A stretch of DNA of 33,216 bases from Halococcus hamelinensis 100A6 (GTDB lineage: Archaea > Halobacteriota > Halobacteria > Halobacteriales > Halococcaceae), in the NCBI RefSeq assembly GCF_000336675.1, contig NZ_AOMB01000041.1, positions 147,109-180,324 of the forward strand, written 5' to 3'. Made by a program: the position numbers and the translations under genes. Below are positions 17,489 through 28,167 of the stretch, piece by piece (the first letter of the stretch is position 1; every line of letters starts with the position of its first letter). The notes under the pieces are model-generated. The model worked only from the letters and a program-made list of their open reading frames with translations, ran no database searches and was not told where the DNA came from.

Positions 17489-18835
17489 ATGGAAATCGAT
17501 ATTGCAACCATCGGCGGCTACGAAGAAGTCGGCCGACAGATGACCGCCGTCCGGGCGGGCGACGACATCGTTGTCTTCGACATGGGCCTCAACCTCTCGA
17601 AGGTCCTGATCCACGACAACGTCGAAACCGAACGCATGCACAGCCTCGACCTGATCGACATGGGCGCGATCCCCGACGACCGGGTCATGTCCGACCTCGA
17701 CGGCGAGGTCCAGGCTATCGTCCCGACACACGGCCACCTCGACCACATCGGGGCCATCAGCAAACTCGCTCACCGCTACGACGCACCCATCGTCGCGACG
17801 CCGTTCACGATCGAGCTCGTCAAACAGCAGATCGAGAGCGAGGAGAAGTTCGGGGTCGGCAACGACCTCGTCAAGATGGACCCGGGCGAATCGATGGAGA
17901 TCGGCAACGGGCTCGATCTCGAGTTCGTCAACGTCACCCACTCGATCATCGACGCGATCAACCCCGTGCTCCACACCCCCGAGGGGTCGATCATCTACGG
18001 GCTCGACAAACGTCTCGACCACACCCCCGTGATCGGCGACCCGATCGACATGGACCGCTTTCGCGAGATCGGTCGCGAGGGCGAGGGCGTGCTCTGTTAC
18101 ATCGAGGACTGCACCAACGCCGGCCGCAAGGGCCGAACCCCGAGCGAGCAGCTCGCGCGCGAGGAGGTTCGGGACGTGCTCTACAGCATGGAGGACTACA
18201 AGGGTGGCATCGTCGCCACCACCTTCTCCAGTCAGATCTCCCGGGTCAAGTCAATCGTGGAGTTCGCAAAGGAGATCGGTCGTCAGCCCGTCCTCCTCGG
18301 TCGCTCGATGGAGAAGTACTCGGGTACCGCCGAGCGCCTCGACTTCGTCGACTTCCCCGACGACCTCGGGATGTTCGGCCACCGGCAGTCGGTCGACCGG
18401 ACCTTCAAGCGGATCATGAACGAGGGCAAGGAGAACTTCCTGCCGATCGTCACGGGCCACCAGGGCGAGCCGCGCGCGATGCTCACCCGGATGGGTCGGG
18501 GCGAGACGCCCTACCAGCTCGACGAGGGTGACAAAGTGATCTTCTCGGCACGGGTCATTCCCGAGCCGACCAACGAGGGCCAGCGTTACCAGTCCGAGCA
18601 GTTGCTCCGGATGCAGGGCGCACGCATCTTCGACGACGTCCACGTTTCGGGCCACATGTCCCAGGAGGGCCACTACACGATGCTCGACACCATCCAGCCC
18701 CAGCACATCGTGCCGGCCCACAACGACCTCGAACACCTCGCGCGCTACATCGACCTCGCCGAGGGCCAGGGCTACCGGATGGGCCGAGACCTCCACGCGA
18801 CGCGCAACGGCAACGTCATCTCGCTGGTCGAATGA
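17489..18835 (+). CDS. rnj: Ribonuclease J (beta-CASP metallo-beta-lactamase family)
   Basis: A 448-residue archaeal RNase J. The metal-binding motif THGHLDHIG lies near residues 80-88 (H81, H83, D85, H86), and further metallo-beta-lactamase elements are VTHSI and YIEDCTNA. The beta-CASP domain runs through about residues 190-360 ([24 protein letters not shown] and [16 protein letters not shown]), and [15 protein letters not shown] plus IVPAHND supply the last metal-site motifs. Archaeal RNase J enzymes are 5'-3' exoribonucleases acting on mRNA. It has the short form without a C-terminal extension. Its stop overlaps the start of idsA (ATGA), so RNA decay and lipid synthesis genes are coupled, an arrangement I recall from other haloarchaea. 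Confidence 0.96.
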
Positions 18836-19881
18836 GCGCTTCGGGGGAGGCGGTCGTCGAGGCGGTCGCGGCACGACGGGAGCTCGTCAACGCGTCGGTC
18901 TCGGAGTACCTCCCGATAGACAAACCCGAGCGCCTCTATCGCGCCTCGCGTCACCTGCTCGACGCCGGCGGCAAGCGCCTCCGGCCCGCGGTCACGCTAC
19001 TCGTAGCCGAGGCACTGACCGACACCGAACCGCTCGGTGCGGACTACCAGTCGTTCCCGACGCTCGACGCCTCGGGACCCGACGAGATAGACCTCATGGC
19101 GGCCGCGGTGAGCATCGAGACGATCCAGTCCTTCACCCTGATCCACGACGACATCATGGACGAGGACGACCTCCGGCGCGGGGTGCCCTCCGTCCACAGC
19201 GCGTTCGACACCGAGACCGCGATCCTCGCTGGCGACACGCTCTACGCGAAGGCCTTCGAGTTCATGCTCGCCACTGGCGCGCCGCCCGAACGCACCGTGC
19301 GCGCGCTCTCGGAGCTCGCCAGGACCTGTACCCGGATCTGCGAGGGCCAGTCGCTCGACGTCGCCTTCGAACACCGCGACGACGTCACGACCGACGAGTA
19401 CATCACGATGGTCGAGCAGAAGACGGCCGTTCTCTACGCCGCCGCAGCCCGGGTCCCGGCCATCCTGCTCGGCGCGGACGACGAGACGACCGAGGCGCTC
19501 CGCCAGTACGGGCTCGACATCGGCCGGGCGTTCCAGATCCGCGACGACGTGCTCGATCTCACGGTTCCGAGCGAGAAGCTCGGCAAACAGCGCGGCAGCG
19601 ACCTCGTCGAGGGCAAGCGCACCGCCGTCACGCTCCACGCCGCCGAGCACGGTGTCGACCTCGACGACCTCGTGGTGTCCGAAACGCCCGCGGAAGTCAC
19701 CGAAGCGGAGATCGACGCCGCGGTCGCCGAACTCGACGCCGCCGGCAGCATCGAGTACGCCCGCACGTTGAGCCGCGACCTCGTCGAGAGCGGGAAATCC
19801 CACCTCGAAGTCCTCCCCGACAACGAGGCCCGCCGTCTGCTCGCGGGGCTCGCCGAATACCTGATCGAACGCGGGTACTAG
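18832..19881 (+). CDS. idsA: Geranylgeranyl diphosphate synthase (trans-prenyltransferase)
   Basis: A 349-residue all-helical polyprenyl synthase. The first Asp-rich motif is DDIMD at 106-110 within [17 protein letters not shown], and the second is DDVLD at 238-242. Phe101 occupies the fifth position before the first motif, where archaeal geranylgeranyl diphosphate synthases carry an aromatic residue that limits chain length, so a C20 product is likely. It condenses isopentenyl diphosphate with allylic diphosphates to make the side chains of archaeal membrane lipids. The start overlaps the rnj stop. The intergenic repeat element begins 3 nt after its stop codon. Confidence 0.95.
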
Positions 19882-19884
19882 AAA

Positions 19885-20120
19885 CCCACCTTTTGCTACG
19901 CTCGGCCGCGAAGCGGCCTCGCTCGCAAAATGTGGATCAAAAGCCTCCTCCTTCCCGATGGTCAGTCGTCGGCCCGCTCGCTCGTTTCACTCGCTCGCGG
20001 TACAACTGCTATCCGCAAACCGCACAGCGCCGCCTCCGCCGAAGCCCTCGCCACGCGCTCCCTTCGGTCGCTACTCACTCGCCTTCGGCTCGTTCGCGCG
20101 GCTCGCCCTTCATCCGCCAG
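19885..20120 (+). repeat. Dispersed intergenic element, copy A
   Basis: Seven blocks are shared in the same order and strand with copy B at 27828-28040. They lie at 19885-19897, 19925-19945 (21 identical bases), 19969-19983, 19991-20005, 20019-20028, 20036-20051 and 20101-20115. Segments between blocks differ in sequence and often in length. Block 1 and block 2 can pair: CCAC-C-TTTTGC (19886-19896) with GCAAAA-T-GTGG (19925-19935); the loop holds an extra 6-bp stem GGCCGC/GCGGCC (19904-19918). The element starts 3 nt after idsA. The several frames open through it are low-complexity Arg/Pro/Ser proteins and are not genes. Confidence 0.75.
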
Positions 20121-20344
20121 ACACCGCCCCGCACCGCACAACGACCACACCGCCGGCCGCCGCCGCACCGCAGCCGTCGGCTGCCGGCCACCGGCCGCAG
20201 CCGCACCCCGTGGGCCGCCGACCGCACGACAAGACCCGGGCGACCCAGGTGTGATCGTTGTGTGCCGATCGCATACCATCGGTTTTCGGGCGATTCGGGC
20301 CGGGAATGAAAAGGAACTTACCCGACGCCCGAGACGGAGTTCGC
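20121..20344. other. Intergenic region between repeat copy A and the nucleotidyltransferase gene
   Basis: The first about 100 bases are C-rich and contain many CCGCAC, CCGCCG and CCGGCC strings that can fold on themselves; they may be the degenerate end of the repeat element. The last about 35 bases before the ATG include AAAAGGAACTTACC, a weak TATA candidate. No protein-coding or RNA gene is supported. Confidence 0.5.
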
Positions 20345-27712: not shown

Positions 27713-27751
27713 ATCACAACCCTTAACCAGCAAACTCGGTTACGAAGAGGT

Positions 27752-27826
27752 AGCGGGATAGGATAGCCAGGAGATTCCGGCGGGCTCATAACCCGCAGAC
27801 CGGTAGTTCAAATCTACCTCCCGCTA
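27752..27826 (+). tRNA. Initiator tRNA-Met (CAT anticodon)
   Basis: The acceptor stem AGCGGGA (27752-27758) pairs with TCCCGCT (27819-27825), with A27826 as discriminator. The A1-U72 end pair and three consecutive G-C pairs next to the anticodon loop (GCGGG-CTCATAA-CCCGC) identify the initiator rather than the elongator methionine tRNA. The T arm reads GGTAGTTCAAATCTACC. No intron or CCA is encoded. Repeat copy B starts 2 nt after the discriminator base. Confidence 0.93.
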
Positions 27827-27827
27827 T

Positions 27828-28040
27828 CCCACCTTTTGCTGCGCTCGTTCACTTCGTTCACTCGCTGGCAAAATGTGGATCAAAAGCCAGCGTCACCCCC
27901 TCCGCTTCGCTCCGGGGGTTCCTCGGCCCGCTCGCTCACTGCGTTCGCTCGCGGTACAAATCCTGAGACCTCCGCTACCGCACAGCACCGCACCCGCCGA
28001 AGCCCTCGCGCCCTCCGGGCGCTCGCCCTTCATCCACCAG
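27828..28040 (+). repeat. Dispersed intergenic element, copy B
   Basis: Same block order as copy A: 27828-27840, 27868-27888, 27923-27937, 27945-27959, 27977-27986, 27994-28009 and 28021-28035. Blocks 1-2, 3-4 and 5-6 keep identical spacing in the two copies (40, 22 and 17 nt between block starts), while other spacers differ. The CCAC-C-TTTTGC / GCAAAA-T-GTGG pairing is preserved (27829-27839 with 27868-27878). A second stem, ACCCCC with GGGGGT, lies between blocks 2 and 3. The copy begins at the 3' end of the initiator tRNA. The region up to 28167 is otherwise gene-free. Confidence 0.75.
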
Positions 28041-28167
28041 GAGATCACAGCTCTCCTGAGCTCGGCTCGCTGGCGCTCGCCGAGACGCCAGGACCGCACC
28101 GGCACCGCGACCGCACTGCGGCCACAGCCCCATCGCCACTATCCTTCTAGTTCGGTTGAGTAGTCCG

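Follow-up and report, generated by a model that had tools for sequence, protein, structure and literature searches.

The 33,216-nucleotide stretch of Halococcus hamelinensis 100A6 analysed here (the window) carries two copies of one dispersed element, the first adjoining the 3' end of idsA and the second that of an initiator tRNA-Met gene (table 1). An initial annotation of this DNA had described a seven-block element at two places, and it is indeed found there, to within one base of the positions first given: the gapped alignment of the two copies contains the seven conserved blocks in order and scores 88, whereas 500 shuffles average 8.6 and reach 21.7 at most. A T-run for transcripts in the plus direction, CCTTTTGC, lies in the H1 region of copy 1, and the covariance-model alignment of this copy reaches 137.6 bits across 19886-20001.

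Table 1. The two element copies in the window, their segments and the adjoining genes.
Feature	Positions	Strand	Remarks
idsA, polyprenyl synthetase gene	18832..19881	+	3' end adjoins copy 1; Pfam polyprenyl synthetase
Copy 1, complete (H1 + linker + H2 + H3 + spacer + 3' module)	19886..20121	structured strand minus	H1 end 4 nt past idsA stop (TAG, 19879-19881)
H1 hairpin, copy 1	19886..19935	-	closing stem CCAC/GTGG and TTTTGC/GCAAAA
Conserved linker, copy 1	19936..19942	-	minus-strand UUUUGAU, between H2 and H1
H2 hairpin, copy 1	19943..19973	-	type I cassette, GCCGACGACTGACC..GGGAAGGAGGAGGC
H3 hairpin, copy 1	19974..20000	-	CCGC-GA-GC-GA-GT-GAA-AC-GA-GC-GA-GCGG
3' module, copy 1	20038..20121	-	GCCGAAGCCCTCG...CTCGCCCTTCATCCGCCAGA, encloses variable hairpin
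Initiator tRNA-Met gene	27751..27829	+	3' end adjoins copy 2; ARAGORN coordinates, Rfam fit ends at 27826
Copy 2, complete	27829..28041	structured strand minus	H1 end 2 nt past final tRNA-Met base of the Rfam fit
H1 hairpin, copy 2	27829..27878	-	covariance-model alignment 108.0 bits across 27829-27955
Conserved linker, copy 2	27879..27885	-	minus-strand UUUUGAU
H2 hairpin, copy 2	27886..27927	-	type II cassette, CCCCC..GGGGG stem
H3 hairpin, copy 2	27928..27954	-	CCGC-GA-GC-GA-AC-GCA-GT-GA-GC-GA-GCGG
3' module, copy 2	27996..28041	-	

The element is approximately 200-300 nt long and folds as a chain of hairpins. When copies are aligned on their anchors the segments follow a fixed order, namely H1, the linker (GATCAAAAGC on the plus strand), H2, H3, a spacer and a 3' module ending in CGCCCTTCATCCRCCAG. 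The initial annotation had noted that the sequence between blocks differs, which is correct; however, those stretches are hairpin stems that swap while still paired, and the structure, with three consecutive hairpins, lies on the strand complementary to the one first read. On this minus strand H3 comes first, followed by H2, CUUUUGAUC and finally H1, whose closing stem has about 10 pairs. The hairpins are built of short Watson-Crick segments, 1-4 bp in all except the longest, split by invariant tandem mismatches of GA opposite GA and capped mostly by GNA triloops, so that the minus-strand consensus of H3 reads CCGC-GA-NN-GA-NN-loop-NN-GA-NN-GA-GCGG. The outer H3 segment takes the forms GC/GC, AC/GT or GT/AC in 41 copies, almost all of which have the flanking TC/TC (GA/GA on the minus strand) intact. 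Among 98 distinct copies from across the order, GA/GA is present at the two H3 positions in 79 and 75, respectively, and the UUUU of the linker is retained in nearly all; GNA accounts for 56 of the 67 three-nucleotide H3 loops. H2 occurs as at least four interchangeable cassettes, and the closing stem varies as CCAC/GTGG, CGAC/GTCG, CAACA/TGTTG, CAACC/GGTTG, GTAGC/GCTAC and CGAAATTTTG/CAAAATTTCG. Some loci (L012, L043, L033 and L008) carry an alternative 3' module (CGACAGCCACACGCCTCCCCAGCCGACTG...GGTGCTCATCCCTCGCACAGTGTCC) in place of the usual GCCGAAGCCCTC...CATCCACCAGG.

A covariance model, R1, was built on eight copies from the genus. In the genus set 98.8% of cells are paired, compared with 31-53% in slid controls. 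Applied to 102 copies of other families, the model retains 97.2% of cells paired (79.2% when shuffled; 36-53% in slid controls), with two-sided changes at 26 of the 30 pairs and in 435 cells, as opposed to 103 in shuffled and at most 59 in slid versions. This very strong covariation bears out the earlier view of a conserved structure with tolerated inserts rather than a recent duplication. The minus strand is the more stably folded one in each of 31 copies (mean -115 vs. -83 kcal/mol) and has more G-U than A-C oppositions (50 and 18, a difference for part of which alignment bias may account); together with the stabilising GA mismatches and GNA loops, this makes the minus strand the likelier functional one. 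The plus strand was rejected as the main structured strand, since it is the less stable in all 31 copies and its TC/TC mismatches would be destabilising. G-U pairs make up 1.8% of the element stems, against 10.6% in tRNAs of the same DNA, a low share consistent with block replacement or with pairing at the DNA level. We also considered the internal loop of H1 as a kink-turn, which does not fit the consensus for every variant. A general scan for GA hairpins revealed an excess only for those with GNA loops, many of them within the element or its relative.

The two copies are far from alone, contrary to the possibility that no others exist. The 20-nt core CAAAATGTGGATCAAAAGC[C/G] has 51 matches with at most 3 mismatches in the 3.42 Mb genome of the organism, against 1 for a reversed-pattern control; some of the 51 are N-joined assembly duplicates, leaving approximately 47 distinct sites. 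Four loci of this genome (L001, L010, L016 and L027) show a single N and a short tandem duplication inside elements, and such N-linked duplications, which inflate the copy count, are probable artefacts of short-read scaffolding. The same core is present in neighbouring genomes of the genus Halococcus, with variants in more distant families. With 150 candidates scored per genome, R1 finds at least 31-73 copies in each Halococcus genome, the number varying between species, and within the order Halobacteriales it matches 249 of 293 genomes, which represent 73 of 81 genera. Outside the order it has none in the phylum sample, where all 32 positive genomes belong to Halobacteriales. Six bacterial matches of a loose DNA pattern are attributed to chance, the covariance model giving them no support, and none of 50,697 phage records matched. 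Rfam release 15, searched over the whole window and, with E up to 1, at six loci, has no match over the element, above gathering score or below it; it yielded only tRNAs and far-below-threshold mir-598 matches in L164. The family is novel with respect to the open literature, where we found PATEs and REPs but no description of it, although an earlier account in subscription papers is possible.

A comparison with a related genome (G006) indicates how the copies diverge. At 25 sites of the H. hamelinensis genome both flanks could be found together in G006, with identities of 88-97% upstream and as low as 80% on one downstream side. None of the 25 syntenic sites is empty in either species: 22 carry the same family and three a related or divergent element. 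The hairpin sequences at shared sites almost always differ, and as intact units: the H3 insert is identical at 1 of 21 sites and the H1 insert at 2 of 18, some of the compared inserts having been mis-delimited by regular expression. Among inner H3 pairs, 17 of 28 have changed on both sides with pairing kept and a single change is one-sided; point mutation at 5-10% divergence cannot account for such proportions. Long cassettes, e.g., CGTCCCAAAATCGC...TGATGACG, recur at non-orthologous sites in both species. This indicates a concerted exchange of cassettes among copies, probably through ectopic gene conversion that would swap whole hairpins via the anchors common to the copies. Exchange of whole hairpins is also the source of the differences between copy 1 and copy 2.

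Placement was assessed in an unbiased sample, 1.96 Mb of G006, with genes defined by ARAGORN and a hexamer gene caller, which replaced an initial acidity-based caller of too low coverage. The sample contains 31 copies outside genes. Twenty of them have their H1 end toward the 3' end of a gene on the same strand, 17 at no more than 34 nt, and 11 toward a divergent gene start, eight of these lying 31-61 nt from the start codon. In leaderless haloarchaeal genes the promoter is expected just inside that spacing. Random placement would put 38% of copies at gene ends (p = 0.003) and 13.6% between convergent genes, where 11 of the 31 are found (p = 0.002). The copies from other families behave similarly: of 72, 53 face a gene end (36 at a distance of 5 nt or less) and 29 lie in convergent contexts, to which 13.6% of long intergenic regions belong. 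The H1-bearing end is 0-5 nt past a stop codon in half of the order-wide copies, and most of the remainder adjoin a tRNA end or lie on the promoter side of a divergent gene. The placement at gene 3' ends put forward initially is therefore upheld for most copies but was too narrow, given that about a quarter to a third of them are at divergent starts.

Two further arrangements were observed at such boundaries. In a genome from another family (G062, L171) one gene start occurs twice, a truncated copy (EYDIDFREN...EEGVLK) preceding the element and another copy following it, which suggests a recombination event at the element. Downstream of the initiator tRNA-Met in G006, G007 and G009 (L112, L113 and L118) are units of about 150 nt whose ends repeat the T-arm of the tRNA, and for G007 and G009 its acceptor end too; they precede the element where one is visible, and represent a different small repeat at the same site.

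The open reading frames of the plus strand were rejected as genes, since they have no Pfam match and the segment lengths are not multiples of three. The suspicion that frames through the element are not genuine proteins was thus well founded: the reading frame is not conserved, with one exception. Between trpE and trpG, in operon sense, three Natrialbaceae genomes (L161, L170 and L412) share a copy with an open, conserved frame that would lengthen TrpG by about 45 residues (MTDTDSTRERVDTSERPDDRP...RSKR-LLVVDNYDSF); PGAP places the TrpG start at the last TTG of H1 instead. From its sequence, this repeat looks like one absorbed into the gene as an N-terminal extension of TrpG.

T-tracts are found in both directions. 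On the plus strand CCACCTTTTGC is positioned just downstream of the gene end, and on the minus strand CUUUUG directly follows H2, forming a hairpin with a U-run. A T4 occurs no more than 60 nt from the stop codon at 15 of 16 gene ends with the element, whereas about 14% of 352 other gene ends have T4 or more; at gene ends with a second, related two-hairpin family, T6-7 is present in seven of seven. That second family (CCACTTTTTT...GCAAAAACCTGGACTAAAAAGG plus an H3-like GA hairpin) numbers 18 copies in the 1.96 Mb of G006 (e.g., C1:482367 and C2:118443) and none in the window, and it obeys the same placement rules as the main element, with longer T-tracts. The element resembles archaeal T-tract terminators in its T-run soon after the gene end, and in the hairpin and U-run of its other strand, but its T-run is only four long in the main family and is embedded in a conserved multi-hairpin repeat that would act in both directions (PMC7237163, PMC8716108). 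In Haloferax volcanii reporter assays, transcription ends at T-runs and at some hairpins (PMC7237163).

The T-tracts in both directions, in combination with the enrichment between convergent genes, favour a reading that we put forward tentatively and without great confidence: the element may act in cis at gene boundaries as a two-way transcription terminator/insulator, with frequent cassette exchange maintaining the copies as a genome-wide family. In the direction of the gene, the edge T-run CCACCUUUUGC, a few nucleotides past the stop codon or tRNA end, would end the upstream transcript. In the opposite direction, RNA from the neighbouring gene would fold into the 3'-module hairpin, H3 and H2, and the folded antisense RNA would meet CUUUUGAUC and then a second U-run in H1, and terminate. 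Such a stop would keep antisense transcription out of the gene end, or out of a divergent gene's promoter. We infer both that the fold forms in RNA and that polymerase stops at the element. Among the roles proposed earlier, in transcript ending, processing or stability, transcript ending is the best-supported guess. Nevertheless, several observations fit termination poorly. The main-family T-runs are short, and the copies at divergent starts lie where an ordinary gene terminator is unneeded. A strong stop would do harm at the conserved trpE-trpG copy, which has the sense of the operon and is read through, possibly as an N-terminal extension of TrpG, and so strong termination cannot hold everywhere. 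Simple stems would do for termination, leaving the GA grammar without explanation, and the low G-U content of the stems is more DNA-like than RNA-like, or else reflects whole-hairpin replacement. A more specific version is in our view improbable: haloarchaea would carry a genome-wide set of boundary elements that are defined not by sequence but by a grammar of structure on one strand (Watson-Crick segments of 1-4 bp in alternation with invariant tandem G-A pairs); replacement of entire hairpins, with position and fold kept, would diversify the stems, and dedicated protein or RNA machinery would read the grammar so as to terminate or insulate transcription.

In an alternative scenario, possible but on balance unlikely, the element works at the DNA level: the minus strand would fold into single-stranded DNA hairpins serving replication, recombination, topology or nucleoid organisation, like bacterial REP/BIME, and its place at gene boundaries would reflect tolerance. 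In DNA, GNA triloops and tandem G-A pairs of the sheared type have very high stability, and both are on one strand. G-T is very rare in the stems in spite of common two-sided changes, unlike in tRNA; copies occur at divergent starts besides gene ends; and no minus-strand transcription is needed. However, the strong bias toward gene ends and convergent genes, the near-invariant U/A tracts and the excess of G-U over A-C on one strand fit RNA better, and no protein partner is known. The REP/BIME elements of Enterobacteria and Pseudomonas, with proposed roles in termination, mRNA stability and topology, are likewise dispersed extragenic imperfect palindromes in tens of copies (PMC3733652, PMC2817692, PMC12306157). 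Compared with these, the present element has a far longer composite fold of three to four hairpins in fixed order and orientation, a tandem GA grammar, cassette-swapped stems and order-wide conservation, and its copies need no Y1/RAYT transposase gene: the REP/RAYT Y1 gene (PF01797) has no match in G003, G008 and G007, which hold 54, 53 and 42 copies, respectively (G007 being only 72% complete). High-copy, extragenic, palindromic and near gene ends, the element is REP/BIME-like in its working rather than by descent, and shares no tested defining enzyme. Integron attC sites also follow stop codons, are strand-asymmetric imperfect palindromes and keep their structure while their sequence varies. 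The element, by contrast, is not a cassette boundary, flanking gene order being conserved at syntenic sites, and the likeness is one of analogy only.

We consider it rather improbable that the family is a non-autonomous mobile element, MITE- or PATE-like, inserting beside gene ends without host function, its conserved sites being old insertions. Such an origin would suit a dispersed element with tens of copies per genome, in numbers that differ between species; it occurs on Natrialbaceae plasmids, the idsA site is filled in only two of ten Halococcus genomes, and the trpE/trpG copy resembles an insertion later taken into the TrpG frame. Yet between the two species compared none of the 25 comparable sites is empty, which leaves no empty site against which a target-site duplication could be read, and the terminal inverted repeats of MITEs are missing: only one end carries H1, and the opposite one is CCCTTCATCCRCCAG. 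PATEs, derived from IS200/IS605 and described in Haloquadratum and other haloarchaea, are similarly transposase-free, palindromic, heterogeneous and devoid of terminal inverted repeats (PMC3119063, PMC10544981). In contrast to them, the element has a fixed boundary placement, no species-specific insertions with clean empty sites at the syntenic positions, and no R1 match in 38 Y1/TnpB loci (121 kb) of the same genus. The Y1 transposase is absent from the three genomes with 42-54 copies cited above, nor does the number of TnpB genes follow copy number; an IS605/PATE origin is therefore not supported.

Finally, a multi-copy structured ncRNA from the minus strand, acting in trans or pairing with adjacent mRNA 3' ends, would agree with the extensive covarying fold, the conserved single-stranded linker and the position of H1 beside those ends, but we regard it as very improbable, since inspection by eye shows no TATA-like promoter downstream of either window copy, the far side often offers little intergenic space, and dozens of interchangeable copies with free stem sequences disfavour a specific trans target.

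The family is found in about 85% of the sampled Halobacteriales genomes, in tens of copies per Halococcus genome, and is absent from Rfam; annotations very likely hide it as intergenic space that is empty or filled with spurious ORFs. The fast, structure-preserving swap of hairpins at fixed sites in species 5-10% apart represents a testable case of concerted evolution of a non-coding structure in a polyploid archaeon. Transcription termination is poorly understood in this group, for which the element, if it does terminate transcription, would provide a terminator that is structured and works in both directions.
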